NCBI GenBank assembly: GCA_037042915.1
Contig: CM073197.1
Location: 2,666,001-2,730,000, forward strand
Length of the DNA stretch: 64,000 nucleotides
Source: Auricularia sp. M13
Taxonomy: Eukaryota > Basidiomycota > Agaricomycetes > Auriculariales > Auriculariaceae
Direction: 5' to 3'
This document shows, in pieces, positions 35,204 to 64,000 of the stretch. Position numbers and translations under genes: made by a program. The notes beneath the pieces are model-generated. The model worked only from the letters and a program-made list of their open reading frames with translations, ran no database searches and was not told where the DNA came from. How positions within the stretch are numbered: the stretch's first letter is position 1; each line of letters begins with the position of its first letter.

Positions 35204-35654
35204 AGTGACAGTCGCCACCCCTTCGTTCGTTTCGTTTCGTCTCGACATTTATTGTGTTTTGTTAGGGCATTGTCTTTGTTGTATGACTAGATCATGACTG
35301 TCGTGTTTAGGTGATGTATGCGCACCTGCGTCGTGCTGCCCTATAAAAGTACTTCTCCGGACTCCCCCTTGATACTGCCATTGACTCGGAGTCGCGTTGA
35401 GAGCTGTGTATCACGTGACTTCGCGAGTGAATGATCAACCTGTGAGATGTGGAAGCGCAAAAATTCTTCCGGCATTTGATTACTGCATGCAGGGTACCAC
35501 TCAAAAATGAGGGTGCAAGGAGGATGATGCTGGATATTAATAATGGTTATTTGCGCTGGAATGACATGGAAGTGTCCAAGACGTTATGGCTATTCGACAA
35601 CAAGATCTTCATCCTGAGCCTCATGTAAATAAGCTGCGCCTAAACGTTTAAATA
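35204..35654. other. Intergenic region
   Basis: About 450 bases between two plus-strand genes, AT-richer than the coding parts. Nothing was recognised. Confidence 0.35.
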
Positions 35655-37067: not shown

Positions 37068-37250
37068 CGCTTCTGGCAGAGCGATCTCGATTTTCTGAAT
37101 TCGTGAAGTTTTGGTATGTGTCCTGCTACTATCAGATATAATGAGATATGAAAGTGATGCGGCAGCGTCGTGTATTCACACTATCAGGGTAGAGATAAGA
37201 TGTACTTTAGTTAGGCAGGCAGCCTTCTTGTTCTCCATAAGACTCTGAAA

Positions 37251-38874: not shown

Positions 38875-40080
38875 TGGTGCGAGCAGCGGGTCGTCTATAG
38901 AGCGCGGGCTGTCACCAAGAGAGCGAGGAGGGATTAGAAGCAGTTAGACAATGCGAAAGAGCTCGTCGTCCGGCACTCAGCGAGTGAGCTCGTGAAGCAA
39001 CGGAGTCAAGCCGCGGGCGGCGGAGTTGAACCAGTTACTGCATGCGACTTGTGCGCCGAATCATCCCGATTTGTGCTGAAACTCCGTATCACCCAAGATG
39101 TGTGGATAATTTGTGCAGGTACGCGTGCCAATTGATGCGTTACCTTCATTTTCCAGCCTATTATGAGTGAAGTCAAAATCTACTAGGAGTGGACACGCAG
39201 CAACTGTACAGTTTCAACAGACTCTAATTCACCAAAATAGCAGATCTAAGCTTAGCTTTGCACGCGGTTGGCAGGGCAAGGCCGTATTCCATGGCATTCG
39301 ATGGAAGAAGGATCGAATGAATACCAAGGACTCAGAGCCCAGTCAGGAGGTGTCTGGTCAGAGCTCCTTAATCTCGCACGAAACTCCCGCAGACAGTCGT
39401 CCATGATCAAGCTTGCAAGGCACGCAAAGGCAGTTTTTATCTTGCCGCGTTTGCGGGGGTGGATTGCACCAATCTCAGTCTCACGTACGTAAACCGCGTC
39501 GAAGCGAGCCGATAATCGGGAGCCCAAATGCGGTCAGGGGGTGTACTTGCATTTCTCAGGAGCGTGCTTTACGATCTCAGTGCTTAGCAGCTCAGGTGAT
39601 CTGGACTCTGTGAAAGTGCTGGAAAACGCGAGATAGGACTCTGCGGATAGCGCGATGGAGTGATGCACATGGGTTGATCACGGCCTCGAGGACGCAGGGC
39701 TTGTACAGTAATTGCCATCGATAGAGTATCGACCATCGATTACTGACCCATCAAGCACGAGGTTGGGTGCGGTCGAGCGATTATTGGACGGCGGGGGGTG
39801 AAGTGTGCGCGGGCCGCCTGGGGTCGAATGTATGCGTACCTTCTGGGCGTCGCGCTCCGCCGCTTCTGATCTCGTGAGCCCTGGCTCGCAGCACGCAGCC
39901 TAAGAAAACTCATGGCGGCCATGCGCCCGCGCTGGGGGTGCGGATGGAGCTTGACGCAAATAAAACCCCGAGAGATTGATGACTCCGCCGTTCGGAGTTG
40001 GCATAAAGCGACCGGTGAAAATTTTGAAGGCTCGCACCCCTTGCCCTCCTACCACTACCTTCCTTCTCGTCCCGCCCCAG
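38875..40080. other. Divergent intergenic region, MYND gene/EF-1alpha copy 1
   Basis: About 1.2 kb. An AATAAAACC TATA-like box is at about 39958-39966, and a CT-rich block at 40040-40080 precedes the 5' UTR intron of EF-1alpha copy 1. No other gene was recognised. Confidence 0.4.
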
Positions 40081-40092
40081 TTGCCCTCCCAG

Positions 40093-41976
<1,884 letters not shown>

Positions 41977-42489
41977 CTACCCTGGCCTCAATCGCGGACG
42001 AGGGTTCGGCTGTTCGCCGCCGGCCCGTTCGCGCTGCCTCGCGTTGCCGCTGTTGATGACCTCCCCTCCTTTGTCTCGTCTCTCATCAATCTGTCTGTTC
42101 TAACGAGCTTGTGTACGACTTACTTTCGGTGTGTCGCGAGGGGGTATCGAATACGAAGCTGTCTCGTTACGCGCTGAATATATTACGATGTTGTACTGCA
42201 GCCTGTCTTTCTTTTGAGTTCTCTGCGCGAAGGCAAAGTGACGTACTTGTGCTCATGAGGGTGTTTGCACGGTTGGATCCGATGAGTGCTTGAGCGTGTG
42301 CCACAATTCCCGATTTGGTCCGAAATCATCTTGCCTCTTGGTTTTGCTGTCGTTGTCGCAGACCTCCCTCTGCTCTTGCAATCAGCATGGACGACGCAAG
42401 CACGACGCACGACTGACCGCCTATTCCTTGCGGCATTGCTGGGTGCGCGTCAAGGGTAGCGCGTCTGAGCGCAGAACGGGAGAGCACGC

Positions 42490-43500
42490 TAGGTCCCAAG
42501 CATCAAACTCGACGCACGACAGCAGCTGCCCAGAAAAATGGCTTACCTCATGCGTGGACGCCGGCGTTCGATGGCCTGGACGAGACGAGGTCGGCCATGC
42601 CGCTGTCAGGGCCAGGCGATACTACTTATGACTCGGAGCGTCAGCAAGATCAAGCTCGTAACGGGCGCGGGCGCTGACCTATGACGACGCTGAATCCTGC
42701 GCAACGGCTCGGCTGGTCGAGTGCTCGTGTCCCGACGAGGTTCCGATCTGGTTGAATGTTGGGCGAGGCTGCTGGCGATGACGAGGGCTGCTGTCCACAT
42801 ACTGGCGACAACGAGGGCTGTAGTTCGCGGTGTAAGCTCGCGCGCTATCATAATGGGCAACGGCTCTGAGTCCTGACGTACTGGTTGGTGGAGGACGTCA
42901 CGGTCTTTGCTTTGCGCGACATCTTCGGGCCTCTTCAGGTCTGGGGCACGCAACAGGACGCTCAATGAAGTTCACGGCTTTTGTTGGGCTGGTAGAGGAC
43001 GCCGACGTTCGTCGACCTGGCGCCGGTTCCGATCTGGTTGGATATTGAACGAGGCTGCTTGCTGTCCGCACGCCGGCGATAACGAGGGCTATGATTCGCG
43101 GTGTAAGCTTGCGCGTTGGCGTTGGCGGCGGCGGCGTTAACGTACTTGAAGCTGAGGAACGCACTTGTCCTCCGCCAGTTTCGCCAGGTCCGAGGCATCA
43201 AACTCGACGCAGGCCACCTGGTTCCGAAGTTTACTGACGACGACGGCGTTCTATGACCTGTCCGAGGCACCAAACTCGCCGTAAGCTAGCTGGTACTGAA
43301 GCCCATGGCCGACTTTGACTGCGGACGCCGAGACGCGACGAGGTCGACTTGAATCCGGTTCCGATCTGATTGGATGTTGAACGAAGCTGCTGTCCAAGCG
43401 CTGGTAATAACTAGGGCTGCGGTTCGCTGCGTAAACTCGCGCGTTGTGGGCAACGTTGCTGACGTACTGGACACTGGAGGATGCGACGAGTGCATCCAAT
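42490..43500. repeat. Decayed direct-repeat array between the EF-1alpha copies
   Basis: The word GGTTCCGATCTG starts at 42739 and 43025, and a near-copy (GGTTCCGATCTGAT) starts at 43357. Each is followed by TTG(G/A)AT(A/G)TTG, a cgAGGCTGCT block and an AGGGCT...TTCGCGGTGTAAGCT-type block, so three copies with periods of about 286 and 332 bases align over more than 100 bases. A second word, TC(C)GAGGCATCAAACTCGACG, occurs near 42493, 43187 and, mutated, 43258. Minus-strand translations of the copies share phrases such as LTPR[TI][TI]ALV and TRSEP. This may be a degenerated coding repeat or a non-coding satellite. No transposase was seen. Confidence 0.65.
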
Positions 43501-44990
43501 GCCTTCCACCACTGGGTATACTCAGCTCCCCGCGTCTGATCGTGCTCCTCCTGCTGCTGGACGATGCACTAGTGCAGCCATCTTAATATTCCGGGTTGAC
43601 TGATGGGTCTGGATGCTAGAGCTCTGGGTGAAGCTTGGCGTTGCGTGGGGCTGGTGCACCGGTTAGATCGTCCGTTTCTGCAGGGCTGCTACAGTCACGA
43701 AAGCAACGGTGTCAATGCCTGGCATACTCTCAGAAACGCGGCGCACAATATTGTACTGGCCTTACGTGTTCGGAGGTCGCGCTGACTCGGCATATCGTGC
43801 TCATGCTCGCGATTCCGCATCCAACCTCGTCCCCGAGTCGATCTTGTCTGATCCTTAACGAACTTCGTGCGAGTTCTCTCTGCTGGGCTGCCTGTGCAAT
43901 GCTGCAGCGACGGCCGCTTCGTGTTCATCGCGGAGGGTCCATTGCCGAGCGGTTCCGAGAGCTGACTGTGGGTGTTGTTGTCATCTGGGCGCTGTGCGGG
44001 TCGAGCGCCTCCCGTCCGAGCCGCAAATATGACTGTCCAGTGCGGTGGCTGCACGCTCTCGCGAGGCGACGGCAAGTGGACAGCGTCGGCGTTCCACCGG
44101 ATATTGCCTGCGTGCGTCAGCGCCGGTCTGGACATGTGCCCCCACACTCATCGAGTAACACACCTTCGTTCGAGATGCATCCCCTGCTATGCGGTGGGCA
44201 TTAAGGCGCTGTCTCGTAGCCCACGGCGAGGCACTGTGCGCGCCTCAGGCTCATGTGCGGTTGCAGATATTTCAGTATGGCGAGGCGACGAGGTGCGAGG
44301 CATCCGCCCGGTCATCTGACCAGCAAAGTCAGGAAATTTATTGGACTTCGCTGCCCTTGGCGTGTCTGTCTCCACGTACCCTGTGCTGCTGTCTCCGGCA
44401 TCGCTGAGAGGCTGTAGTTCTCCGCGCATCTCGCCTCGTGTTGGAAGAGAGGGGTTCGGATAGCACCGGGGTGCGATCCTGTTGATTCTAGGGGCTCTTT
44501 CTCAGTCTTGGGTCATGGTGGACCTTGGTGCTGGCAGCGAAAGTGCTTTGGCGCAGTTCTGAGGTCAGCTTCGAAATGACTCGGCTCCCAAGATCAGTGA
44601 TTGGATCCGGGCGAAACGGTTGAGACCAAGCACGGCGTGTCAGTATACCAATGGCAGGCTGACCTTCCCTCCGACGACTCGCGGACCATGCGTCTCTTCT
44701 GTTCTCTCAGCCGCCGGCCCTCTTCGGCACCAGCTATCGTTGGCTGTAGCCACCGAGCCCGAGGTCATTGCAGCCAAACGTGACCCCATCTCAGGTTCAT
44801 CTGCCAATTCTGCGGTCCCGGGGAGAGTCATGCTTCTGCCATTGGATGGAGGGGGTGAGTCACTGCGGTGTGCACGGGTGACTGCATGCTTGGGTCTGGG
44901 GCCGGGCGCTAAACCCGCCTCGGCATAAAAGTCGGCGACTGTTACACACAAGCAAACAGCACCATCGTCCCTCTCTCTCACCCCTCCCGC
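43501..44990. other. Intergenic, promoter side of EF-1alpha copy 2
   Basis: About 1.5 kb with no recognised gene. A CATAAAAG TATA-like box lies at 44924-44931, followed by a CT-rich stretch (44968-44990) directly before the leader intron. Confidence 0.4.
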
Positions 44991-44992
44991 AT

Positions 44993-45151
44993 GTGAGTAT
45001 TTTCCTCTTTTCTGTCTCATTTTCCCGTGGGCGGCGCCTTCGCGAGGTCAAGCTGCTCTGCCGTCCGATGGCAGGCAATGACGGACACTCCCCGCGGGCT
45101 GCCTCCCTCTCTCTCTCTCTCTCGGATCCTGCGCGCTGACTGCCGTCACAG
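44993..45151 (+). promoter_or_regulatory. 5' UTR intron of EF-1alpha copy 2, with a CT microsatellite
   Basis: GTGAGT at 44993 and GTCACAG ending at 45151 bound a 159-nt intron with branch GCTGAC near 45136. It contains an uninterrupted (CT)n run at about 45104-45121. The ATG follows at 45175. Confidence 0.65.
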
Positions 45152-45174
45152 ACTCGCCGCGCTAGATCTATACC

Positions 45175-46818
<1,644 letters not shown>

Positions 46819-47702
46819 CAGCTACACGGGGCGCACGCCTCTTTACGAACGATCAGATGTTTCGCTCCTGGTCTGCTGGCGTCGCCCACGAACTGTGATG
46901 ATCTTCCCTTCTCTCGTCACCCTCCACTACATGTTTCGTTGACTCTGTGCTGTCGATATTTCGTACCAGGATATCGAATAGGAATCCGATTCGTTGCGTC
47001 CCTTACACTCGTGATCCCCTGAGAGCTGAACCACTGGCATGCAGCGCGCGAAGTCACTTGAGTAAATCGTTAGATATCTGCACATGAAGCTCAACACCGA
47101 GCCGGTTACTATTCGTGATACCACGGCCCGGCGGTACAAAGCCATGGCGCATCGGTACAATCTTGCAGCGTTTCCATTCAGCTGCTTTACCCAGGGAGTC
47201 AAACTTCGTAGGCGTCTGCTATCATATCGACTAGGTATGGTACGCACATCCGATGCGTCATGAAGTGTGTGATTCAAGCTCTTCCAGCGCCCCGCCACAA
47301 ACCTGAAGTGACATCAACAACGGGACGCGACAGGCGCGGTTTAGCATGTCGTCGTATCATGTGCGCGGGTGGAAAAGGTGTGTTATTCGTCCTCATGTCA
47401 ATAAATGCGAAAGAAGCTCCAGACAGAAGCCATTTTGCCTCCGTGCCCATTGTGTTCGCCTAGTCACGACGGCCCGACGAGCCCAGCCGTATGACGAGTT
47501 CTCACCTGTCGCGCGCCCATAACATTGCTCATTAGGAGTATACAGAGCATCGGAACGCGTGGTGGCTAGCTCCCGGTTGGCTGGAGCACAATAGAGCCTG
47601 CCTGTCCGGGACGACGCGCGGACACGGACGCGGACGCGGACGTGGGCAGGACGGGACCGCGTGCCCCGCTGTCCTGGGCCGCTCCTGCCTCATTGCCGCT
47701 AT
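46819..47702. other. Intergenic region
   Basis: About 880 bases after EF-1alpha copy 2. No gene recognised. At 47610-47645 a GACGCG/GGACGCGGAC short tandem run occurs just upstream of the next gene. Confidence 0.35.
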
Positions 47703-48308
47703 ATGAGCCAGAGCTCCAGCGGGCACGCGACGCCGTGCCCCGCCGACGCCGCGACCATGGGCGGACTGCACGCGATGCGCGATGGGATCGACCTCTGGCT
47801 CGCGTCGCTCCCGAAGTACTCGCTCGCGTTCCTCCCGCCGCCGGGCGCGCAGATGCCCGTCGTCCTCGCCGCCTCGGACTTCCCCTCGCTGGGGCACGGC
47901 GCCTTCGCCCTTCTTCTCACGGGGCCGTACACACTGCGCGTGGTTAACGGTACTAAGCCCTTTCATCTCCTCCCCCCTAGACGAGTGATGACCGTTCGTC
48001 TCACAACTCACTTAATTGTTGTAGGCCCGCTCTCAAACGTGGTAACTCAGCTCGACATTGACCCTGAAGGCTACAACCACGGCGCATTCGGCCGCGGCGT
48101 CGTGATCGAGGCGCTCCGCATGCTAGTGCGTGTCGGCTCATCCTCAGGCCAGATGCTGGTGCGCCCAAACTTCGTTGCAAACCCCATCCTCGCGGGGAGC
48201 GTGCGTGAGATTGTGCTGCTGTACAAGAGCGCCAACAAGAGCCAAGAGCGTGTGAGCCACACCATGCACGCGTCAACCTTCCCTGCGCGTGAGGGATGGC
48301 GCCACTGA
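47703..48308 (+). CDS. Unrecognised small protein
   Basis: No family was recognised. The start MSQSSSGHATPCPADAATMGG (47703) is a guess; an in-frame upstream start at 47661 and a Met at 47757 (MGGLHAM) are also possible. An intron at 47950-48024 (GTACTA donor, CTTAAT branch-like, TGTAG acceptor) joins YTLRVVNG to PLSNVVTQLDIDPEGYNHGA; its 75-nt length is a multiple of three, so retention would add 25 residues in frame. The protein has moderate hydrophobic stretches (MPVVLAASDFPSLGHGAFAL) but no clear signal peptide or motif. GC-rich codon use fits a real gene. Confidence 0.5.
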   Translation: MSQSSSGHATPCPADAATMGGLHAMRDGIDLWLASLPKYSLAFLPPPGAQMPVVLAASDFPSLGHGAFALLLTGPYTLRVVNGTKPFHLLPPRRVMTVRLTTHLIVVGPLSNVVTQLDIDPEGYNHGAFGRGVVIEALRMLVRVGSSSGQMLVRPNFVANPILAGSVREIVLLYKSANKSQERVSHTMHASTFPAREGWRH

Positions 48309-48991
48309 GAGCTTTACAATGTCTTTCCTCGATTTGCGTCCGCAGAGTGCTTCATCGCTCTCCTGTAGACGCTATGTTTCTACTTCGACCTTCGTTCTTT
48401 CTTACATTTGAACTTCGCTTTCGTTCGTTCACATTCGCTCTTCGCCGTTCGTTTGCAACTTTGCCACACTGCCATTCGTTCCTCTGCACTTTATGTGTCA
48501 CGAATGTTACGACATACGACGACTGACCATGGGAATACATGATGTGATTTTCCTTGGATGTGCTTGGCCGCGTAAGTTGTGAACGAGACTTTGCATCTTC
48601 TGCCGATCTCCCGAGCCTCTGTGATCAATCCGTAACCCATTCCACGAGTATAACGACTATAGTCGCGGAATATCATTACGGAATCCTCAGGACAAGGTCT
48701 CGCTCAACTTATCAACGCCATAGAAGTCTGTGTATGATGTTCGTCCTGCAGATTGAGCCGTGGATTTTTCATATTTAATCTTTCAATCGCGCCCAGCTGT
48801 CTCCTCAAATTTATTGAGGCCTTTAACGGAGAAGTAATTGTGGAATGAAGTTGGGGAGCTGTCTTCGACCTCGAAGTTGACATGCTTGACACGTCGGAAG
48901 GAAACCTTGTTGCGGGAGTCAGTCATCCGGCAAACTCCGACTGCTCACCTCCACCAACACCCTTCCTCAAGACCCAACCAACCCGGACCGG
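48309..48991. other. Intergenic, rpl16 promoter
   Basis: About 680 bases. The stretch 48370-48480 is rich in TTCG/CTTT words, and a pyrimidine-rich stretch precedes the ribosomal-protein gene. No other feature seen. Confidence 0.35.
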
Positions 48992-49048
48992 TGCGTGCAC
49001 TGCTCGCCGCCGTTGTCGCGCGTCGCGCTGACTATCCGGGATATTCAG
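48992..49048 (+). promoter_or_regulatory. Probable 5' UTR intron of the uL13 gene
   Basis: GTGCGT at 48992 and ATATTCAG ending at 49048, with a CTGAC branch at about 49028, bound a 57-nt intron ending three bases before the ATG. Confidence 0.55.
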
Positions 49049-49051
49049 GCC

Positions 49052-49815
49052 ATGTCCACCTTCTCGTCGAGCCCCGTTGTCATCGATGGCAAGGGCCACC
49101 TCCTTGGCCGGCTCGCGTCCATTATCGCAAAACAAATCCTTAATGGCCAGAAGATCACCGTCGTCCGCTGCGAGGAGATCAACATTAGCGGCTCGTTCTT
49201 CCGCAACAAGGTGCGCGTCGCCGTCGCCGTGACGTTCCGTGACCTGCGTGACTTATGCTTCGCTCTGCAGCTCCGGTACCACAACTTCCTGCACAAGCGG
49301 CACATTGTGAACCCCAAGAAGTCGGGGCCGTTCCATCACCGCGCGCCGTCCAAAATCCTCTACCGCGCAGTCCGTGGCATGGTCCCCCACAAGACCGCGC
49401 GCGGTGCCGCTGCCCTCGAGCGCCTCAAGCTCTTCGAGGGTGTCCCCCCGCCGTACGACAGGAAGAAGCGTATGGTCGTCCCGGCTGCTCTCCGCGTGCT
49501 GCGCCTCAAGCCTGGCCGCAAGTACTGCACCGTGAAGGTGCGAGAATTTCGATTAGATCGTAATTTCAGCGACTGAAATGCCGCACCATATCTCAGCGTC
49601 TGTCCCACGAGGTTGGTTGGGGATACAAGGACGTCGTCGACCGCCTGGAGGAGAAGCGCAAGATCAAGGCGCAGGCCTTCCACGAGCGCAAGGTGAGCTC
49701 ATACTCCCCACTCACCGTGCATTGGTTTACATTTCATCAGGTCGCGTCCATCAAGCTGCGTCAAAAGGCGATTGCGGAGAACGCATCGGCGAGCCTCACC
49801 GAGCTTGGGTACTAG
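49052..49815 (+). CDS. RPL16: 60S ribosomal protein uL13 (Rpl16/L13a)
   Basis: This is a large-subunit ribosomal protein. It starts [20 protein letters not shown] at 49052. The family blocks [54 protein letters not shown] and [17 protein letters not shown] are intact, followed by [18 protein letters not shown]. Three introns join FFRNK to LRYHN, CTVK to [14 protein letters not shown] and HERK to [10 protein letters not shown]. It ends [10 protein letters not shown] at 49815, about 200 residues, normal for the family. It is convergent with the dienelactone-hydrolase-family gene about 700 bases away. Confidence 0.95.
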
Positions 49816-50522
49816 ATTGCGACGACCGCTATTGCCACCTATGCTGTATGACTCGACATGCGCTTTCTCCTGACAAAAGATCGAGTGTATGCATGCACCC
49901 CGGGCGACATCGCACTTCTTTCTTGAGCCGTTCGCTGCAGTTCTCCGCATTCTTTCTACTCGCCAAGAACCTGCAGCAGTACATACTTGGAACAAAGTTT
50001 CTGTCTCGACTTGCATGATCTGCTTTCCTACCGCACGCGTCAACGGAATCGAAGCAAGACCACTGGCTCTTCGAATCGCACAGCCTGAGCTGGTTCTCAT
50101 ATGTCTGCGAATGTTTTGCCCCTTCAGTGTCGACTGCACTGTGTCGTGTTGACTTCATCGTGATCTGTCTCTGCCAGTGGTGACCGCTGCGGCTTTATTG
50201 CTCCTCGGGTGCGAAGTGGATGATAGACTGGAAGTCACAAACCAAGATCCTAGACACTGTTCACAGCCTACCAATGTTGTGCGAAATGCGTAGCGTTCTC
50301 AGTGAGATTATGAGTGCGACTTGCGCTCATATTGCCGAGGACCGTAGACATGCAGGACGTTGTCGGACGCGGATGAGAGAATATAGTCAAGAGTTCGGTC
50401 TGCTCTGCGCATTTTGCACTCGCAGGGGGCAACGTGTCAAACAAGAGAACGCGCTATGATATGGCCGGCGCGTATTTATCCTTCGGAAACGTAGCTGACA
50501 TCGGTTGTACTTATTCCCCCAC
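49816..50522. other. Convergent intergenic region
   Basis: About 700 bases between two 3' ends. No recognisable gene, repeat or RNA. Confidence 0.35.
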
Positions 50523-51915
50523 CTAGCAGACGTGCTCGGGTTCGCTCACAGTCCCCACAGGGGCTCCAAGGTCGCGCGCGACGGTCCTATCGAAGACCTC
50601 GATCATGAGGCCGAATAGAGCGCGTGTGAGCGCCGCGTCCCAGCGCCCTTTGCTCGCCTCGTCGCGGATGAACGCATGCTGGGCCTGGACCTCGACGAAC
50701 TATGGTAAAGATCGAAGAAATGAGTACATCGGAATGCGAGTGCAGACAATGGAATAGAGACGAACCGTGGACGTGACTCCAGCGTCCTCAAGCGCTGCCC
50801 GAATGGCATCGCGACCGGCACGTGGAACATGGGTGTCTTGTTTCCCGAAGATCATCTGCATTGGTACGGTGCAAAGTGTGTCAGAAAGTCAACGAATTTA
50901 ATGGCCTGGACGGAAGCCGACAGGGGAAGAAACAATCTCACAAGGACTTCGCCTTTACCAGAAAGTTCTCCTTTCTTGACGCGGGCGAGAGAGTCATCGC
51001 CGCCTTTGCCGAGCGTCGCGCTGTGGATGTCCGTAGCGAAGAAGCACACCGCAGCGCGCACGCGTGCATCAAAGGCCGTCTGTCGATGTACCGTCGGGTT
51101 AGCCACCAGATCAGCAGATTTTCAAGCGAGAACGAACCCGAAATGCTAGATGGCCGCCCAGGCACATGCCAGTGGTGGCAATTCTCCCGGTGCAGTTCGG
51201 AAGGCTCAAGAGCAGATCTTGGATTTTGGCGTCAGAGACAGCGGGCGCCTTTTGGGATCTGGGGGCACACCGACTGAGAGTTTGGAATCCTCAAATAGAG
51301 ATGAGCAGCATTCAGGTCTCCTCTGAGACTCACTTCATCATAAGCTACTACGGTTTTCTCGACCTTCATACGAAATAATCATGAGCAGATACAATCACAA
51401 ACTTTGCGGATGTAATGCACCTTGTATTTGTTCCCGCGATCCGTGCCTGTATCCTACTGGTCAGGACGAACCCTCATTCTTACTGGTCAGATGCGACTCC
51501 CCTTCAGTGTCGTACGGGATGGCCTCGGGTCCTTGGAACTCGTGGAAGCTCGACGGGCACGCTGAAGATCGCATCAGCATCGACTACTCTACATGCGTCC
51601 CAGTCCGCCCACCAACAACGTAGCCATGGCTTGCAATCTGTCCGGCAAACCTGCGCAGTCCGTTGTGAAGATGAAGGCGCAATATGACTCGGAGTGACAG
51701 CTTGCCTTTCGACAGGCCCGGTCACTTGATAAATCTCACTGCATCAAATTTAAGTTAATTCATGACGACGGCATGTTCAGTACTCACCTGAAAACGACAA
51801 CGCCGGGGAATTTGGCGTTGGGGTAGCCAGGAACAGTGGGCGCGATGACATAGATGCGGATCGGTCCGCGCGCAGACTGCGTTTGCACGTCGTGGAAAGT
51901 CTTGGTCATGAGCAT
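50523..51915 (-). CDS. Dienelactone hydrolase family protein
   Basis: This is a cytosolic-type alpha/beta-hydrolase of the dienelactone hydrolase family, known for opening lactone rings in aromatic degradation, though many fungal members have other substrates. It starts MLMTKTFHDVQTQ at 51915 (an ATG two codons in is also possible). The nucleophile motif is TTGMCLGGHLAF, with the Cys typical of the family. Later GKQDTHVP (catalytic Asp region) and EVQAQHAFIRDE (catalytic His) appear. Exons GNKYKVEKTVVAYDE, then APAVSDAKIQDLLLSLPNC and ARVRAAVCFFATDIHSATLG follow through at least seven introns, all resolved in frame. It ends TVSEPEHVC at 50523. It is divergent from an O-methyltransferase gene 412 bases away. 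Confidence 0.85.
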
Positions 51916-52327
51916 GCTGGGAGACGAGGGCTGCGCAGACTGCGGAACCAGTAACCTGTAGGTACAAGTTCGAGGGCTAGGCTCAGGCTGCCGCAGGCGA
52001 TTGCCGATTGGAGCAATGCCGGGCACGCGGCACCATTTCGCATACGGGAGCTCACTGGACAAAGAGATCATGTGCTGGAAAAAAAGGAAGTTGACCCTCT
52101 TGTATCCTCGTACGATGTGCGGGAGGGGCTGCTGCATTGCGACAGCGTCGATGCCGAAAGTGGAGAAACAGATGATGACTGATTAGATATGACTAGATTA
52201 TCTGATTAGATGGCGTCAGCCCGCAGCCGACCCGCATTTAGTGACATGATCTCGCCGACGAATTTCACTTCCATGGGGTATATAAAGCGGGATGTTGCAC
52301 AGTATCCCACACACATACACAATCGCA
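51916..52327. promoter_or_regulatory. Shared divergent promoter, DLH-like/O-methyltransferase
   Basis: This 412-base gap must carry both promoters. TATAAA at 52281-52286 lies 42 nt before the O-methyltransferase ATG. CTGATTAGAT occurs twice, at 52179-52188 and 52202-52211. Co-regulation of the two genes is possible but not shown. Confidence 0.45.
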
Positions 52328-53072
52328 ATGTCCCGCAGCGAATCGACCAACCTCTACGCGACGGAGCAGGACTGGCTTCGCTCCGAGGAGTACAGCGCAC
52401 GCTTTACCCTCGCCACGCAGCCACAGTGCACGCACGATGCCGCCACGGCGAGCGTTGCTGCAGGTCTCCCCGATATGGCTACTTCCGCGCCGGAGGCCAA
52501 GTTCCTCAACTTGCTGGTGAAGTCGCATGGTGCGCGCAGGGTGCTCGAGATCGGCACACTCGGCGGCTACTCTGCCATCTGGATGGCGCTCGCGCTCCCC
52601 GCCGACGGCCGGCTCGTCTCGCTCGAGTTTCGCGAGAAACATGCGCAGGTGTGTATCTGTTCTCGAGAGCACATTGTTCACTTACAGAGGACGTGTCCAG
52701 GTAGCGCGCAAGAACATCGAGAACGCTGGCCTTGCAGACAAAGTGCAAGTCATCGTGGGCCCGGCGCTCGAGAGCCTGGCGAAGCTGGACGCAGCAGAGC
52801 CCTTCGACCTCGTCTTCATCGACGCAGACAGCAAGAACGACCTCCCGTACTTCCTTGAGGCGAAGAGGCTCCTGCGCCCGCGCGGCGTCATCGTCGTCGA
52901 CAATATCATCCGCTACGGACTCACTGCCGACCCCGCGGCCAACGACGAGCAGACTCCCGGCGTTCGCGCGCTTCTCGAGCACATCCAGAGCGACAAGGAG
53001 GTCGAGGCGACAGTCATCCAGACCATCGGTAGCCGCGGCTTCGACGGGTTCATGTACGCTGTCAAGCTGTAA
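52328..53072 (+). CDS. SAM-dependent O-methyltransferase, CCoAOMT-like (Methyltransf_3)
   Basis: This is a class-I SAM methyltransferase of the caffeoyl-CoA/catechol O-methyltransferase group; the substrate is probably a small catechol or similar compound, by family. It starts MSRSESTNLYATEQDW. Exon 1 covers residues 1-107 and exon 2 residues 108-230, with intron 52649-52700. The SAM-binding loop is VLEIGTLGGYSAIWMA. The acidic motif and metal-site region is FDLVFIDADSKNDLPYF, followed by GVIVVDNIIRYG, where the family's metal-binding Asp/Asn lie. It ends GFDGFMYAVKL at 53072. Length of 230 residues is normal. A good TATA box supports the start. It is convergent with the MEMO1-family gene. 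Confidence 0.9.
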
Positions 53073-53193
53073 ACATAATAAGACACGATACAAGACGCTG
53101 TTGGATTGGATTGGATGTAGTACACGACGAGGGAATACTGTACACAGCTAGTACAAGATGAATGGAATGTCGGTGGTGCAGTACCAGTTCTGT

Positions 53194-54454
53194 TCAGAAG
53201 ACAACGTAGGCGGAGGCATAGCTGACGCTGGAGTCGTTGACATCGGCGCACTGGCTGCTCTGCTCGTACCGCACGAACTTGATCTCGTGGGATGCTCCGT
53301 CGAGCGCCTCCAATGCGGCAAGCAGGACGCCGATGGGGTGCCGCCCGCAAATGGTGTTGCGCGTGCGGCGAAGGTAGTCCATGAAGCGCGCGTGCTGTCT
53401 GCCTTCGATAACGCCGATGGCTTCCCGGTCTAGCGCCTCGATAGATTTGTGGATCGGGTGCGCTGGCGGGCGCGCGCCACGCGCCAATTTGGCAAGGGGG
53501 CCTGGCGGTGGATTCGGATAGTGCAGCGTGTATTGGAAGCGGAGACCCCTTCGCTTGAGAGTGAGCACGACAGAAAAGTCGAAGATAGACGGGAGCATAC
53601 CAATGGCAGAAGTCCGAGGACACGACTGTGAACGTGTCCGGCTGAGATAGGAATGGTGCAAGAAGGGCACCATACGACCGTTCGCCTTCGGTGTCTAGCG
53701 CGCCGACGAGAATGGGAACGATAACGATGTCGAGGCTGTCGGCGCCTCGTTAATGCTATATCTAGCTGGTGTTACAAGGGCTACACACCCTTCGAAAACC
53801 TTGCGAATGTACGGTAGGTGCATCTCCATGCTATGTTCGTCCTCGTCCGTCGACCGGGACATATCTTCGAACTTGCCAGTAGCGCGCAGCTCCGCGACGG
53901 CTGAATAACCGCTCGTGTCAGCGGCCGATTTAATATGGGCGTTGACATACTGGTCTTGTCAATTGGGAGGGCGCCGATCGGGGTGTCGTATGCGTCCAGA
54001 ACGCTTAGTGCGCATCCGGGTAAATAGTAATGGTGCGAGGGTCCAAGGACGAAGACACGGCGGCTGGCAGTGGCGCATCCATGAGCCACAGGCTGTAGAT
54101 AGGCTACCAATGTGCTCACATGCCCGTCGTATCGATACACTTGTAAGCCCAGGCTGCTGCTGGACCAGAATACGAGTATCCTGCATGGCTGGTATCTCTG
54201 TGAGGAATAGAGCTCGTGGCGAGCGAATGAAGGCGTACGGTGCTATTATCGCCTTGCAGCCTGGGACGGGAGCACTCCCAGCCGACTCGAGCCAGGTCGA
54301 GAGCTGACCCTGGAGCTCATCGCCTGAGGATTCGATTAGCCTCGCCAGTGTTGGGAACGACAAAGCATATAAACTTGCGATTATTGGTGTACCATGATCC
54401 CGCGTGGGTCGCACGCCTGGTACGGGAGTGTGGGACGCTGTGAGGTATGCCCAT
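53194..54454 (-). CDS. MEMO1/Mho1 family protein
   Basis: This is a member of the conserved MEMO1 family (yeast Mho1), related to extradiol-dioxygenase folds and implicated in metal or redox biology (family knowledge). It starts at 54454, [20 protein letters not shown], with the family opening [11 protein letters not shown]. Introns lead to [12 protein letters not shown], then [19 protein letters not shown], with a conserved metal-ligand His. [20 protein letters not shown] holds the second His ligand. RATGKFEDM and [17 protein letters not shown] follow. The C-terminal block [20 protein letters not shown] and [10 protein letters not shown]...[13 protein letters not shown] is very close to the family. 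Several introns, all in frame. Confidence 0.9.
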
Positions 54455-55000
54455 AGAGAGCCACGGACCTTGTGGCCATCCCTGCACAGTGACCGACGCC
54501 GAGGGAATCGATTCTTCGGCTGCGTCCGGTGCCCAGCGCTTCCTTGCTCCCACCGTTCAGTAAACTCAGAACCGCAATTTCTCGACGTCCATGGCGGACT
54601 AGAGCTCTCTCGACCTGCAATATGGCCGTAGGACTGATAAAACCAGAACTGGCTGCATTCCATGGGTCTTTTCGCGCTCGCTCGTGCTGCAAGTTGCCAA
54701 TCTTTCACTGCTGCTGCTGTACGTCGCGTTCTAAGCCTTTCTGGTACTGCTCAAGGCTCAGTCTACTGTCTAGATATCTGCGCATCTGGGAGATCTATGC
54801 TACAACTCCATTCACCACCATAGACAGCACTTAGTGCGCTTGTACGAAGAGCTCGTGCGACCGTGTCTGTGAGTCCTACGGCGCGCTCTTGTTTATAGCT
54901 AACGCGTCCAAGTGTGCAGAAAACACATTTTATCAAAGATAGAAATAATAACGCGACTCGCATCGCGTCTGTCCGCGTGCATTACAACGACAACGCACAT
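54455..55000. other. Divergent intergenic region, MEMO1/deaminase-like gene
   Basis: About 550 bases. Nothing recognised beyond presumed promoters. Confidence 0.3.
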
Positions 55001-55795
55001 ATGCACATCTGGGATTATTTTTCAGCGCTAGGTATCGCGCCTCCCAACTACCAGAGCGAACATGTGCTGATGGCGCGTTTTATCGGGCAGGTTACATCTT
55101 CGCACACCAGTCCAACGCCATGCAGCCTGACGCAGTGCATTTGGTGCAACTACTGAGTCTCTACGCGTCTTGGACGCGTATCTCCGCGCGCGCTCTGGAG
55201 CTGAATCCGCCTACGGTTGTACAACTGCTCTGGACACCCACGGCCATCGCGCTCGCGGCGAGTGTCGTGCCTGGAAGAGCCGATGTAGAAGAACTACGCG
55301 CCGCCCGCATGCAGGAGTGGCCGCACTCGCACGCGCTGCCGCGACCGACGCCCGTGCAACGGGCGCACGCCGCGGCAGGCGTGTGTTATGTCGAGCCTTC
55401 TGCGGAGCTGTTCGGTACGCCTTGGGGACACTGCGGGGAGAGCGTGTCGTTTGCTTCGTACGTCTACGTCGTTCGCATGCCCAAATGAGCCTGATGCCAA
55501 TTCTTTTGTTCTCTATGCGCATAATAGCATGTATAAAACGATGCAAAGCGAGACCCCGCTTGGTACGCTCGCGCTGAGCGTTAAAGCGATGACGACACAG
55601 CTGCCCGACGTGGGCGTTGCGCCCACCGAAGCGATCTGCGCGCTCCACCGCACACAGGACGTGGTCGAGGTGCTTCGCGTCGCCGGAGCTCTCCGCCCAA
55701 TGTGCCTCAACTGCTCTCATTTGGCGAGCTCGGTCTCCGCCAATCTTGAAGACTTTGCAGTCTTGTTTGCTGACCCCCACTCACCTTTGGAATGA
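55001..55795 (+). CDS. Probable deaminase-fold protein (CxE and CxxC zinc motifs)
   Basis: It was not recognised as a named gene. The start is uncertain: 55001 (MHIWDYFSALGIAPP) or 55070 (MARFIGQ). Two introns are proposed, 55091-55125 (35 nt, weak) and 55458-55527 (GTACGT donor, CTGAT branch, strong), giving HLVQLLSLYASWTRISARAL, then a helical middle and WGHCGESVSFAS joined to MYKTMQSETPLGTLALSV, and finally LRPMCLNCSHLASSVSANLE, ending ADPHSPLE. The CGE (Cys at 55432) plus CLNC (Cys codons at 55703 and 55712) resemble the C/HxE and CxxC zinc ligands of the cytidine-deaminase-like superfamily, of which fungi carry several uncharacterised groups. If so, the Glu of CGE would be the proton shuttle. 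The long spacing (about 60 residues) and the Gly in CGE are atypical, so another zinc fold is possible. Confidence 0.5.
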
Positions 55796-57079
55796 TATTG
55801 CAGACAAAATTGCGAGCGACAGGTGCGTTTGGCTATCAGGTCGGAGATGGTTCGAACTAATGGCGAGCAGTGAATGGACCGCTGTCCAGAGGATTGGTCT
55901 TTTCCTTCCTAGCGGACCACTCACTCCCGTTATCCACTACAGGGCGTCGCGGCGCAAGCTCCAGGTACCATAACGAAATTTGGCCGTGAAGTCCTTGACT
56001 CATGTTAAGACAGATTTGCGTCGCCAATGCCATGTTACTGGAGGCACAGTTCTATCGGCAGAACGCCTGCATCGGTCGGACAGAGACGAATTGCCCCTTT
56101 GACTACCATTCTTGGTATCACAAGCTCTGTACGGTGACAACTTACGAGGATAAGTCCGCCATTGTGCCACGTACAACTCGTCGGCTTCACCACTCTCCAA
56201 CTATTCCAGTCAACACTGTGCTTATAAACACCGTGGGGATCCCTACCAGCAGCTCTGTCCTTTACAAGCAGCCTCCAGCAATATCCCAGACAAGCCTAAT
56301 ACAACCCGGATCTGGCAACTCTGTTTTTCTGCATTGCAAGATGACTTCGGTTGCCATGATGCTTCACTCCTCTTTTCAACTTGAACAGAGCCCTTCCTTC
56401 AACCAGTGCTGATACCGTTCAACAGCTATGTGTTTCAACTGTGCGCCTAGGCGCCTCGGTCTCGACAGTGCCTCCTCAGGGCCTACAGCATTACGATTAA
56501 GTTCTCACATTCAAGTCGGATCTGGAAATGCATTGGAAACAAAGGGAAGTCTGCCATGGCCGGCCCATTGGGGATCTCTGGAGCTTGCCCTGCACCAGCA
56601 TTGGATGTGAGCCTAGACTGGACATGTGCTCCAGGGCTGAAAGTCTAGTATCAAAACTGTGTCAAGAAGTTCAAGTTGCTCAGAAGCGGAGATGTTTGCT
56701 GATCCTGCGGAGGGATTCGCATGTGGCAATGCAGGAGGCCAGGATGCGACGTGGTCGGACTTGAATGCAATGTTGAAGAAGGGGATAGACTACAGGCTGC
56801 AAGAAAGTCGGGAAGCACGTGGTGCGGGAGATTGACAGCGATGCACCAGCCCGGAATAGGCACAGGTGCATGAGAAGCGAGCCTGGGGTCAGTCTCAGGA
56901 TCGTGGGCGGCCCAGACAATTCCGTGGGTATTGGAGATGTGAGGGGCAGTGGCGGATGTTGGAGGCAGGGATGCAATCCCTTGGCGCGCGGTGCGTGCCG
57001 AGTCAAGCCGTAGGGGTGCAAAAAAGCGGAGCATTGGTCCGCGTTCTGCATCTTTATCGCTTTCTTCATCTCGTCGCCG
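55796..57079. other. Intergenic upstream of the kinase
   Basis: About 1.28 kb. An open frame at 56002-56412 has no family features. A CCTAGACTGG word is found at about 56611 and again just inside the kinase gene near 57112; it may be chance. No gene called. Confidence 0.35.
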
Positions 57080-59164
57080 ATGTCGACGGGTACAACGGAC
57101 AGCGGGGTCAGCCTAGACTGGCACCTGCCGCCTAAGGAACGCGGCTTGGCCGCGCCTGGGCTCCTGTTCTTTGCGCCGGCGTCACACTCAGCCACCAGCT
57201 CGCGGCCAGCGTCTCCGATGTCGCACGCACGGTCCATATCGTCACCGCCGTCGCTCTCGATGTCTTCGCCGTCGCTGTCACCAGACCCAGAAGACGACCA
57301 GGAGCATCGGCGTGCCAGCAGCCCCCGGAGCGACGACGACAGCGAGGAGCCCGTCGTGCAAATTGCGCCCAGGCCGATGAGCCTGACTTACGGGATCAGT
57401 GCTGTTGGCAGGGGTTTCGACTGGCGCTGGTCGGATAATGGCAGCAAAGACGGGCCTGGGACGACCCCACCAGCCAGGGAGGAGGATGCGCCAAATATTG
57501 ATAGCCCGTCCTGGAGCTTGGGCTACAACGTTTCTGTGCTTTCTCGTCGCCCGGTCTCAACAACGCCTCCCCCGGTCACCCCGCCACCCACAGAGGCCCC
57601 AGAGCCCGCTATATCCGAGCCTCTTACGGACTCGCCGCCGTCTAACGCCGTGCCATTTCCATCAGTCGACGAGCCCCAGATTCAGCCTCCTCAGCCCCAG
57701 TCCACGCCGTCTAGCCCCCGACCACGGCGACGCGATTCCCAGAAGCGCATATCGCTTGTCGCTGGCAGGCTATCAATGATATCTATCCAGCCGCCACCCA
57801 GCCCGCCGCCGCGCACGTCCTCGCCGTCATTATTGTCACCGCGCCTCAATCGCTTCGGCTCCAACTCGTCGGCGCTTTCTATCATTTCGACAGGCCCTCC
57901 ATCGCGTTCGGAGGAGACAAGCACGTTCAACGGTGTGCGCAGCATTGACCAATTCGTCATCGAAGGCGAGGCAGGCCGCGGCGCGTACGGTGTCGTCAAA
58001 CGCGCTCGGGAACGCCTGCCCGACGGCACGCTTGGCCCACCTCTCATTCTCAAGCAAGTCGTCAAGTCACGCATTCTCGCGGACTGTTGGAAAAAGCACC
58101 CGCGCCTAGGCACGATCCCTATCGAGATCTATGTCATGTCTGCCATCTCCAACACGCCTTACACATTGCCCTGCCCTCGACGCCCCTGGGACCCACAACG
58201 GGCCTTTGTCACTGGCAAAGAGCCGCCCCCAAGAACACCAGGAGAGGTCGTGCTCGGCCACCCAGGCATTTGCAAGCTCATCGACTTCTGGGAGGACCCG
58301 CACTTTTACTACCTCATGCTGCCCAACGCGCGCCCGACCACGCCGCCAAGCAAAGACACGCCCGGGGACCTGTTTGACCTCGTCGAAATCTATCCGCACG
58401 GATTACCCCCTCATCTCACACGATCTTATCTCGGCCAGTTGGCAGACGCCGTGGCGTTCCTGCACTCGAAAGGCATCGTGCACCGCGATATCAAGGACGA
58501 GAATGTTGTTCTCGGCGAGCCGGACGGTGTCTGTGTCCTCATCGACTTTGGCTCGTCCGGCGTCGTGCGCCGCGCCGGCTGGGACACGTTCAGCGGAACG
58601 TACGTCGTCCGCCCAGCGTGTCGGATGCCCAACTAACTCGACGGCAGGCTGGACTACGCCGCGCCGGAGATCCTCGAGGGCGCACGGTACATGGGCAAGG
58701 AACAGGACGTGTGGGCGTTCGGCGTCGTCGCGTTCGTCCTGCTCGTCGGTGAGTGCCCCTTCGCGTCGAAGGCGGAGGCACACGCCGGCCTCGGCCCGCC
58801 GTCGTCGCGCGCAACACCTCCGCCACCTGAGGCGGCGTTCCTCGACAGCGTCGGATCGCAGCAGCAGCAGCCGACCAAGTCAGGCCGCGCACTCGACGCG
58901 CGGTGTTCTGGGCTCGACGAGGCGCGGGGCGCACTGGACCGCGCGTTGGAGGGCCTCGAACCGGACGGTGGCGGCGCGCTGGGCGATGCTGCGGCCCTTG
59001 TGCGCGCGTGCTTGCAGGTGACGCCTTCCGAGCGGCCGACATTCGAAGACATCATGCGCTCGCGCTTCCTCAGCGGCGGCGCTGGCTGGTCGGACGAGTG
59101 GGTCCCCGGCTGGACCGACGCCGCTTCGAGTCCCGAAGAGCTGCTCTCGCCGCAGTTTCCCTGA
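57080..59164 (+). CDS. PAS-kinase-like Ser/Thr protein kinase without visible PAS domain
   Basis: This is a predicted Ser/Thr kinase close to the PAS-kinase/Psk group by its catalytic core. It starts [20 protein letters not shown]. The first 290 residues are Ser/Pro-rich and probably disordered, with no PAS domain visible. The kinase domain begins with [11 protein letters not shown], then [12 protein letters not shown] (catalytic Lys), [10 protein letters not shown] (Glu of helix C), the catalytic loop [11 protein letters not shown] and DFGSSGVV. The intron 58600-58647 (ACTAAC branch) joins TFSGT to [12 protein letters not shown], and [20 protein letters not shown] follows. An insert of about 85 residues, rich in Ala, Gly and Gln, sits in the C-lobe before [20 protein letters not shown]. 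It ends [10 protein letters not shown] second insert between the early strands ([14 protein letters not shown]) is also unusual. Confidence 0.82.
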
Positions 59165-60427
59165 CGCGCTTTTCCCACACCCTGTCATCTTTATTACTCG
59201 CCAACCATCTCGCTCCATACACATCATCGCAATGTCGCAACGCATCCATTTCTCCTCGCTTCTGCTTTCTCTTCATCTCTGCCCCGCTGAATCAAAGAAC
59301 TGAAGTCGCTTTACATTTATCGCCGTGTATAGACGTCCACTTGCAGCGAATGGATTTGTAGCATTTACCCCCAGCAATTCCTTTGCATTTGAAATATGTA
59401 TGCGGCCTTTGCTGCTCTGTAACCTTTGATGTGTGTTGCATACAGTAATCGAGGACGGAGCACCATGGCATTTGAGTGTGCATTAGTTTTACTCTTTTAT
59501 TTGGAAACGGCGGAGCCCCACTCGGAACCTACCATCTCTTCTTCGTCGACTTTGTCGCTGTCAGAGCAGCCGGGCTCCAACCGCATATGCTTGATACCTG
59601 CCGCATACTTTAAGCTCATAATTCTTGCTGCGCGTTTACTGCCAAGTGACTGGAGCCTGGAAGCGACACAGTATCCGTATTCGTATGAAGTTTGTACCGC
59701 CCCTCGGGCCTCCGCATCATCGCATACTGGCAGGCATCCTCCAGCAACCGTATTCACGCGTCTATATCTTAACCCCGCTCGAAGATTCAGGAAACTTACT
59801 AGAAAAGCGTTTACTTCTATCTAATCTCTGGAGCGCCCTCTCCCTGCTGTCCGATATCGCGCGCCGGGACTACGACCTGTTAGCCCTTCGTTTCGCCGTC
59901 TCGCTTGAGATCTTGGCTGCTGTCTGATGACGGTGCCACCATGTGCCCTGTGCTCGTGGCCTTGCTACGCACAAGCCCGGTCTCTGTCCGCCTTCGATGA
60001 TGCATGTCGGACCCCTGGGAGCAGTAACCATCCTACATTCCTTCGTCAAATGCATTGATAGCGTACCTGAAGTTCTCTGCGGGTGTCTGAGGCATGCACG
60101 ATGCGACTAGACTCAGTGGACTTTGCATGGAGTAACAGCAGAATATCCGGCGCAGGCTTTGTCATTGGGCGACCACCCCGTCGGCTGCACTTGCCCGGAC
60201 GGGGTTCATACAAGCTTGCACCTTCTGTGCTGCGTCGTCACTATATCCCGGGCACTCGTCGGGCCCATCGCCCGTCGCCAATCAGAGACGCTGCGTGGTC
60301 GTCCAGCAGCGTACGAGGTGCCATGCATTTCCCCGGGCGGGCGCGTGCAGCAGTATAAAGGATGGGTGGGGCACTCCTAGTCTCGACATCGGTTAACCAA
60401 CAGGCAACGGTTCACAGGTTCACAGCA
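59165..60427. other. Intergenic upstream of GH7
   Basis: About 1.26 kb containing the GH7 promoter. TATAAA lies at 60354-60359, 69 nt before the ATG, with a GC block CCCCGGGCGGGCGCG at 60331-60345. No gene recognised. Confidence 0.4.
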
Positions 60428-62245
60428 ATGTTCCCCGCAGTCGCCCTCCTCTCTTTCGCCCTCGCTGCCGTCCGCGGCCAGCAGGTTGGCACGAACACGG
60501 CCGAGAGCCACCCCAAGCTCACCTGGTCGCGGTGTACCGGCTCTGGCTGCACGCAGCAGAACGGTGAGCTCTTCATGTTGCGAGGAAGCGCGCTTGCTGA
60601 GTTGTTGCAGGTGCCGTCGTCTTGGACTCTAACTGGCGCTGACTGCACACCACCACCGGTTACACGAACTGCTACAACGGTACGGCATGCTGCTCGTCCT
60701 TGAGCTCCGAATTTTAACGCAGCCCCCCACAGGGAACGCGTGGAACACGACTCTGTGCCCCGATGGCGCGACGTGCGCAAGCAACTGCGCGCTCGACGGC
60801 GCAGACTACTCCGGCACTTACGGCATTACTACCAGCGGCAATGCGCTCACGCTCAAGTTTGTGACGCAGGGCGCGCAGAAGAACATCGGTTCGCGTGTGT
60901 ACCTCATGGCCAGCGACACTGAGTACGAGATGTTCAACCTCCTCAACTCCGAGTTCACCTTCGACGTCGACGTCTCCAACTTGCCATGCGGCCTCAACGG
61001 CGCCGTCTACTTCTCGGCCATGGACGCCGATGGTGGCATGTCCAAGTTCGCGACTAACAAGGCTGGTGCTAAGTACGGAACTGGTTACTGCGACTCGCAG
61101 TGCCCGCACGACATCAAGTTCATCAACGGCGAGGTGGGAAAAATCGGGTGGCCTGCCTATGTCTCATGTTGACACATTCTTCTAACCAGGCTAACGTCGC
61201 TGGCTGGACCCCGTCGCCGAGTGACAGCAACGCCGGATCTGGCACTGCTGGCGCTTGCTGCGCGGAGATGGATATCTGGGAGGCTAACAGCATCAGCGCT
61301 GCTGTATGTCATTCCAGCGGGCTCTATTTTGAACTAATGCTGACTTTGCCCAAGGTCACCCCTCACCCTTGCACGGGCACCGGACTTCAGAAGTGCAGCG
61401 GCGCCACCTGCGGTGACGGTGACGATCGTGCGACCGGCATCTGCGACAAGGACGGATGCGACTTCAACTCGTTCCGCATGGGTGATAAGACCTTCCTCGG
61501 CCCTGGCATGACCGTCGACACCACCAAGAAGATCACCGTCGTCACCCAATTCCTGACCACCGGCAACTCGACTACTGGCCCGCTCACTGAAATCCGTCGC
61601 CTGTATGTCCAGAACGGCAACGTCATCCAGAACTCCAAGACCAACATCGCCGGAATGGCCACCTTCGACTCCATCACCGAGGACTTCTGCGACGCGCAGA
61701 AGGCCGCGTTCCAGGACACGCAGAGCTTCCAGAACCACGGTGGCCTGAAGCAGATGGGCGCCGCCATGGCGCAGGGCATGGTCCTTGTGCTCTCCGTCTG
61801 GGACGACCATGATGTCAACATGCTGTGGCTCGACTCGAGCTACCCGACCGACCAGGACCCCACCAAGCCCGGCATCGCTCGTGGCTCCTGCGCAACGACC
61901 TCCGGCCAGCCCACCGTCGTCGAGGCGAACGCCGCCAACATCCAGGTCACGTACTCTAACATCCGCTTCGGCTCCATCGGCTCGACCTACACTGGCGCCG
62001 CGGCTAGCCCAGCGCCCCCGACGTCGACCTCCTCCACTGGCAACACCGGCACGACCACCTCGTCTGCTCCTCAGGCAACTCAGACCAAGTTCGGACAATG
62101 CGGCGGTACTGGCTTCACGTGAGTATCTTTGTCGTCTTTTGTGAAGTCCCCTAGCTGACCGGAGCTATCAAGTGGCCCCACGGTCTGCGCTGCCGGGTCG
62201 ACTTGCAAGGCGGTCTCTCCGCCGTACTACAGCCAGTGCTTGTAA
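60428..62245 (+). CDS. GH7 cellobiohydrolase with CBM1; in-frame TGA at conserved Trp
   Basis: This is a secreted reducing-end cellobiohydrolase (CBHI, Cel7) for crystalline cellulose. The signal peptide [17 protein letters not shown] is followed by the mature start [16 protein letters not shown]. Introns join CTQQNG to [14 protein letters not shown] to NAWNTT, INGE to ANVAGW and NSISAA to VTPHPC. The catalytic motif EMDIWEAN is intact (nucleophile and acid/base Glu), as are [18 protein letters not shown] and the tunnel residue segment [14 protein letters not shown] equivalent. A Ser/Thr/Pro linker leads to a CBM1 ([15 protein letters not shown]...YYSQCL), ending at 62245. The codon after NWR is TGA (60640-60642), where the family has Trp (NWRWLH). 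If real, translation would stop after about 40 residues. Frame and splice sites around it are otherwise perfect, and no alternative intron removes it. Confidence 0.9.
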
Positions 62246-62387
62246 ACGTACCAAGTGCCAGCATGGGCATGCGTAGCATGCCCTGTCAATATTTTCCTGT
62301 ATACATAGTATCTAATCTGCTCTAGGAGCCATGAAATTTGAAATACTATATTGGCATTTTCACAAATAGCGTGTTCAAGAAATTGGC

Positions 62388-63053
62388 ACTGGGAGCAAGG
62401 ACGAGGATCCCTTGAATATCTCCTGAGTATCCTGCCATGACATTCAGATGAATGGCACGAGTATCCCAAGAGTATGATATTCTGAACCACTCTGGTGATA
62501 CACTTTACACAAGGTAATATATTGGATGAGTATCCCTTGAGGCACAAATGTTCTCATGAGATCAGGGGGGCCGCATGATAAGGATTGTGAATATCGGGTG
62601 GGGGTGGGTGGGTCGTGGGAAGATGTGCGCGCTAATCAATCCCATTCAGTTTTTCTGGATGTCTTTTGCGTACTGTGACCGCCGTTCCCTTTCGAAACCC
62701 CGGATTTTTTGCAAGTGAGCCGTAATTTGCAGACCGCAACTTTCTGGCAAAAAATATGGGTCGAAATCCTTCGTTTCTCACTGCTCGAACATTTTGTGAC
62801 GATTGTTTGGGTGCCAACTCAATTGAGTTGCCATCAATCTTCCCACGACCCACCACCCCCACCCGATATTGACTATTCTTATCATGCGGCCCCCCTGCAT
62901 GAGATACTCATTCAATATATTACAGCCTTGTGCATAGAGTATCTCCAGAGTAGTTCAGGCTGTGATACTCTTAGGAAACTCGTGCAATTCATCTGAATGT
63001 CAAGTTGGAATACTCAATAGATACTCTATGGAGTCTCTACTCTGCTCCCAGTG
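62388..63053. mobile_element. Foldback/MITE-like element with long inverted arms
   Basis: The left arm 62388-62624 and right arm 62837-63053 are inverted copies with many small indels. Both begin CACTGGGAGCA at the outside and end at GTGGGAAGAT inside. Shared blocks include ACATTCAGATGAAT, GGTAATATATTG and its counterpart, GGGGGGCCGCATGATAAG and ATATCGGGTGGGGGTG. The arms contain several GAGTATC words on both strands. The 212-base spacer holds a perfect 16-bp palindrome CAACTCAATTGAGTTG at 62815-62830 but no transposase. It lies about 140 bases 3' of the GH7 stop. A clear target-site duplication was not found. A non-autonomous DNA transposon of the foldback/MITE type is the best guess. Confidence 0.75.
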
Positions 63054-63793
63054 TGGTTGAGGGGAACAATTGTCCAATTCGTCTTACTTCGAAAGTCCGC
63101 ATTCGCTCCTTATCCTCTCACCTCCCAAATGGGATGAGCGCGTCCGCCGCTAGTGGTTTGTTCCCTATATCCCAATTATATAGGCAGCATCTCGAAACTC
63201 TGGTCGCGAACACCCTCCCTGATTCTCTGGCTCGTAGGCTTCCAACCGGATTGGCACAAAACTGCTATAGGAATATCCCTGGTCAGGAGCTTGCAATCTA
63301 CTCCGCTCAGCCATCTGCGTGCGCTTTCATTCTCCGAAAGCGTCCCTACTAGTCTTATATCTGCGATCCTCTCTCGCACACAGCAGCTCGATACGTTTGA
63401 AGTTGGGCCCTTTCATGGAGCTATCTGATGGTGGTGACTGGGCTGCGGGCCCTTTGGACCTGTATTTGCGGCCTTTCCGCGCCTTGAGCTCTTGATGCTT
63501 GTCGACGTCAAACCCGACCTCCCTCGCTGGCTTTCGGGCGTATGGACTGGTCTCCGCAAGTCCAGGGAGAACGCGGGCCTGGCTTTGTACCGGCTGTTCG
63601 TCACCCCCGCGCAATCACCTTCATGCATCCGTCCGACGTGGGATCTCAGCCAGAGCATGCGCTCAATGAGTTACGATCTGCCTACCGGGCGAAACGCATC
63701 CGGATTATGAATGTCGTTGACTCTACAGCCGGAATCGCTTGTAGGGGTTGGCTGGGCTGGGCAAGCAACGCGCTTGACTTGCCCTTCGCATGA
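63054..63793 (+). pseudogene. Possible F-box/LRR-type remnant
   Basis: Pieces in different frames look like the leucine-rich part of basidiomycete F-box proteins: LRALSFSESVPTSLISAIL with RTQQLDTFEVGPFHGAI (to 63428), then LYLRPFRALSS and LMLVDVKPDLPRWLSGVW, then AITFMHPSDVG with LNELRSAYRAKRIRI. Stops and frame changes separate them, and no convincing intron set joins them. It could be a decayed gene next to the foldback element, or a gene with unrecognised introns. Weak call. Confidence 0.25.
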
Positions 63794-64000
63794 CCCTCCA
63801 CCATCACCGGCGGTCCGGGTTTATCGATTTTTTTTCCGACATAGTACGCGGAGGTTGATAACCTGTGATTCAACCACTTTATATGGATTTACTTCCTCGC
63901 AGCGAGCCGGCACCGAGTGCAATGAACAAAATTTACAATTTCCAATATTCGAATTACGTGCACAGCAGTTCCGGGCATCTGGATAATACATGCGTACGAT
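63794..64000. other. Right window edge, nothing recognised
   Basis: About 200 bases, AT-richer; no feature supported. Confidence 0.3.

Follow-up and report, generated by a model that had tools for sequence, protein, structure and literature searches.

A premature TGA at the Trp40 codon of a GH7 cellobiohydrolase gene in Auricularia sp. M13: probably a recent nonsense allele of one of two haplotypes

A GH7 gene with an in-frame TGA

We analyzed a window of 64,000 nucleotides on contig C5 (C5:2666001-2730000) of the genome of Auricularia sp. M13 (52.1 Mb, 14 contigs), whose gene content and closest enzymes point to a wood-decay basidiomycete. Its forward strand carries a six-exon GH7 cellobiohydrolase gene of 519 codons (60428..62245; copy A), recognized from its translation and from Pfam and ending in TAA. 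Exon 1 (60428..60563, forward strand, as are all exons) contains the start codon and an N terminus that reads as signal-peptide-like. Exon 2 (60611..60679), only 69 nt long and placed between two phase-1 introns, carries a TGA in frame at 60640..60642, codon 56. Exons 3 (60733..61133), 4 (61190..61303), and 5 (61355..62118) matched Pfam PF00840 (Glyco_hydro_7) at 231.6, 50.5, and 309.4 bits, respectively (cut-off: 27), and exon 6 (62173..62245) encodes the end of a C-terminal tail that reads as a putative CBM1. The introns are GT-AG in five of five cases, and the translation of exon 4 includes EMDIWE, which we take to be the catalytic motif of GH7 cellobiohydrolases.

Codon 56 is the sole internal in-frame stop of copy A, and its context is non-homopolymer. 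The TGA is a real feature of the assembly, and a single in-frame stop within an otherwise intact frame of 519 codons exceeds what chance alignment of frames would give. The seven other Trp codons of copy A are all TGG and there is no second in-frame TGA; TGA is thus not a general Trp codon here, and its reassignment to Trp is ruled out for this gene.

When an intact relative (copy E) was used as the query, the codon-56 position aligned with Trp at chain residue 40 in all five displayed PDB alignments (40 distinct sequences matched). One study describes W40 as steering the cellulose chain into the tunnel of TrCel7A, and adds that an Ala mutant of the equivalent W65 of TcCel7A was not obtained in A. 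oryzae, whereas a W40A mutant of T. reesei had been obtained (PMC5701224). Copy A resembles Cel7A and Cel7D in PF00840 across exons 3–5, in the NWR(W) strand, and in EMDIWE, but differs in having a stop in place of the Trp40 codon, a difference confined to copy A. A preliminary description of this locus had placed the TGA at the tunnel-entrance Trp and called the remainder of the gene intact. The placement was confirmed by the PDB alignments and by TGG in the other GH7 loci of the genome (see below), and the intactness by the introns, EMDIWE, and the open frame, the signal peptide and CBM1 being assigned by reading of the translation.

Copies of the gene and the duplicated block on C5

We investigated the other GH7 genes of the genome. 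The family, whose relatives are eukaryotic, gave 28 matching stretches, which we grouped into eight loci: A, E, D, B, F, and C on C5, one on C4, and one on C8. TGG occupied the codon-56 position in all seven loci other than A, so that the stop is not conserved across relatives in this genome, as it would be in functional UGA readthrough. In the five C5 copies modelled besides A (B, C, D, E, and F), no stop interrupts the translation. Along C5 the order is A E D, then B F C, with the same order and orientation in both sets, and identities over the gene were 98.4% for A/B, 97.4% for C/D, and 98.8% for E/F. Copies E and F lack the second intron of copy A.

Copy B (C5:3230523-3232338) differs from A at 29 of 1817 aligned bases. 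In coding sequence, 18 codons differ (17 synonymous, 0 missense, and 1 nonsense, the TGA) and there is no coding indel; B encodes a protein identical to that of A apart from Trp at codon 56. The comparison of C with D gave 22 synonymous and 1 missense differences, that of E with F gave 15 differing codons, 4 of them missense, and a kinase-like open reading frame near A (57014-58633) showed 19 synonymous and 4 missense differences and no stop between its two copies. On the branch of A itself we counted 7 synonymous changes (with one further site at which A and B each differ from C–F) and 0 missense changes, for which the neutral probability is 1e-5 to 3e-4 (kappa 1–8). Under the same neutral assumption the TGA would fall in the last 12–19% of this branch (95% bound), an estimate that treats alleles as a simple branch, would be blurred by recombination or gene conversion, and rests on the small count of 7. 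These figures rule out an old pseudogene. Constraint on A either held until very recently or persists, and the data cannot separate the two. A single lesion in an otherwise intact frame, with 0 missense differences from B, is what a recent nonsense allele would show; the intact frame alone cannot tell recent nonsense from readthrough.

Copies A and B lie in a block of which one scaffold carries two copies in series, a left copy at C5:2669844-3173656 (504 kb) and a right copy at C5:3173757-3802321 (629 kb); the last 504 kb of one contig corresponds to the first 629 kb of the next. Window positions 3844..64000 belong to the left copy, as judged from sampled comparison rather than base by base throughout. 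A run of exactly 100 N (C5:3173657-3173756) sits on the boundary of the copies; no other N run occurs in the window or in the 163 kb of loci examined. Homology of the right copy begins at the first base past the 100 N, which corresponds to window 3844, and that of the left copy stops at the last base before them, which corresponds to C5:3802321. Homology would end at any junction gap, and this coincidence therefore proves only an assembly break there; such a break is expected for overlapping haplotype contigs, whereas a real duplication would need a special reason for it.

The end of the left contig matches the right copy at every anchor tested. All eight probes from position 3175001 on (C5:3175001-3211200) matched the window at 97.0–99.6%, C5:3150001 matched C5:3777219 at 99%, and C5:3171001-3173656 matched C5:3798362-3802321 at 97–98%. 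The probes at 3130001, 3150001, and 3170001 did not match the window, in agreement with their position on C5; only 3150001 was searched genome-wide. A gene that we assigned to cytosolic-type ribosomal protein L13 is doubled only as the block pair. Just outside the block, the probes were single-copy: genome searches found no near-identical second copy of the DNA just left of window 3844 or of C5:3802832-3804000 to the right of the block, and a farther probe had one 85% relative on C7 and no near-identical copy. The block copies differ in length by about 125 kb. The offset between copies jumps from 504 to 639 kb between C5:2726429/3230523 (A/B) and C5:3057315/3695819 (E/F), which implies about 134 kb of extra sequence in one block copy there. 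The right copy carries two tandem 1.3-kb units, 99.8% identical to each other, within C5:3799377-3802016; in the left copy we saw only one.

The 15 kb around A aligned with the surroundings of B in two long pieces (97.7 and 98.7%), split by a 667-bp insertion next to A. This transposon-like insertion (62387..63053) has 11-bp terminal inverted repeats (CACTGGGAGCA) and TGG on both sides, and it is absent from B, which has a clean empty site there. The insertion looks like one element nested in another, because the central ~335 bp and the outer parts each have their own set of matches in the genome. The outer matches overlap by 8 bases at one copy on C6. Elsewhere in the window, two eEF1A-type genes adjoin (41057-42100 and 45763-46731); a probe matching the region of the former at 99% matches that of the latter at 80%. 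Window 1064-2075 shares ~73% identity with C5:2732598-2733614 and with C5:3236004-3237020, as members of a diverged local repeat or gene family.

In one paper, a gap that separates duplicated pairs on a scaffold counts, like half depth, as a mark of false heterotype duplication (PMC9516828). The C5 block is similar in that a gap, here the 100 N, separates diverged copies on one scaffold, and its flanks were single-copy in the probes just outside it. It differs in that the phenomenon was described in vertebrates and defined by read depth and k-mers, whereas the block is known from the assembly alone. A homeobox search for mating type found one locus, on C3, and no second mating-type allele, a result that speaks neither for nor against a dikaryon.

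Error, duplication, and recoding as alternatives

The main rival to a genuine nonsense mutation is a base-call or polishing error, with DNA that really reads TGG. One substitution suffices for it, TGG stands in the other seven GH7 loci, A and B have no missense difference, and the site was judged from the assembly. Against it, random errors would be missense ~24 times as often as nonsense (0.734 vs 0.030, kappa 1), but A and B differ by 0 missense changes and no coding indel; this is a weak argument, since true random mutation gives the same 4% figure. The non-homopolymer context also speaks against an error, which we regard as unlikely, though it deserves more weight than any other alternative. 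Less likely again is a real large tandem segmental duplication, with A as a recent pseudogene and B as its intact paralogue. The head-to-tail copies on one scaffold and their difference of about 125 kb would suit such an event, which would look similar if the assembly had broken at the junction, but the 100-N gap lies exactly at the copy boundary, and the ~98% identity in samples together with the empty transposon site is as expected of two haplotypes.

The preliminary description had also raised leaky decoding at a TGA followed by C. Near-cognate tRNA-Trp might decode UGA-CUG in a programmed or useful way and so yield some full-length enzyme. This idea would draw on work on Ustilago maydis, which states that UGA followed by CU suffices for efficient readthrough and lists Trp among the residues reported at UGA (PMC4207609). 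Copy A has this core motif (TGA CTG), and so that part of the suggestion stood: basal readthrough at UGA-CUG is plausible by analogy with U. maydis. As for a function of readthrough, the suggestion gained nothing. CTG is the next codon in six of six close copies, which indicates that the leaky context was inherited rather than selected; the intact copies remove the need for readthrough; and no stimulatory RNA structure was found downstream of the TGA relative to shuffles (z = 0.36 unspliced; 0.39 spliced, 100 nt). The lack of missense changes in A, which would otherwise favor readthrough, is explained by the recency of the TGA. Moreover, the likeness to the metabolic enzymes of U. maydis ends at UGA-CU, as these are described: there the enzyme is complete before the stop and gains a targeting signal through the extension, whereas the stop at codon 56 would abolish the enzyme; and there A follows UGA-CU, whereas G does so in copy A, A at this third place having raised readthrough further in human cells (PMC4207609). 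A partial literature search found no report of readthrough in a fungal cellulase, and we consider functional readthrough of copy A highly improbable.

Conversion of the UGA into a Trp codon by RNA editing and skipping of exon 2 seem even more remote. Editing, A-to-I included, has been reported in wood-decay Polyporales according to a 2020 review, which also gives correction of premature stops as unreported in basidiomycetes and cautions that the alleles of a dikaryon mimic editing (PMC7306014). A-to-I correction of premature stops as known from ascomycetes prefers U before the edited A (PMC11156358), but the base preceding it in copy A is G. Overall, functional readthrough or editing of copy A found no positive support. 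As for skipping, loss of the 69-nt exon between two phase-1 introns would remove the stop in frame, but 23 codons would be lost with it, including both Trp positions and a Cys, as judged from the sequence.

A null allele of one haplotype

We consider it probable that the strain is heterozygous, in all likelihood as a dikaryon, that a genuine nonsense mutation arose recently in one of its two haplotypes to give the TGA, and that the haplotypes were joined in series. The block series, the 100 N at its boundary, the single-copy probes outside, and the empty transposon site in B lead us to infer that two different nuclei carry A and B as alleles. The assembler would have retained both haplotypes of the region and the scaffolder would have set them in series, so that what look like two genes of one scaffold would be a null allele (A) and an intact allele (B, TGG). 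Translation of A should end after 55 residues, signal peptide included, and A would be null. An early stop in exon 2 of six makes an mRNA likely to decay by nonsense-mediated decay; with its stop so placed, the mRNA of A is a likely target and is predicted to decay. With B and the close copies C, D, E, and F intact, loss of A would be tolerated.

A nonsense allele can be masked in a dikaryon, and A and B fit this situation in that one substitution breaks one haplotype while the other is intact. Among the options listed in the preliminary description, a null allele in a dikaryon is the one that our results strongly favor, as B encodes an otherwise identical protein with Trp and lies in a haplotype-like block. 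Copy B, the apparent allele of the other nucleus, reads TGG. No report of a premature-stop allele of a cellobiohydrolase in a dikaryon was among the matches listed in a partial literature search.

There is a slight chance that the TGA haplotype is not null, with tRNA-Trp reading UGA-CUG to give a low, possibly condition-dependent dose of native cellobiohydrolase in secreting hyphae. If so, a nonsense codon at a key tunnel residue would segregate as a near-neutral dosage allele, and the inherited UGA-CU would make TGG-to-TGA at this position unusually mild in GH7 genes with CTN as the next codon. The site would then be a natural reporter of readthrough, since codon 56 is the only difference between the proteins of A and B.

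Under the favored reading of two haplotypes in series, counting genes on this scaffold would give six close GH7 genes, although these probably represent three loci, each in two haplotypes, and one of the six would be credited with a 'recoded' stop. Copy A would instead be a nonsense allele within a redundant gene family.
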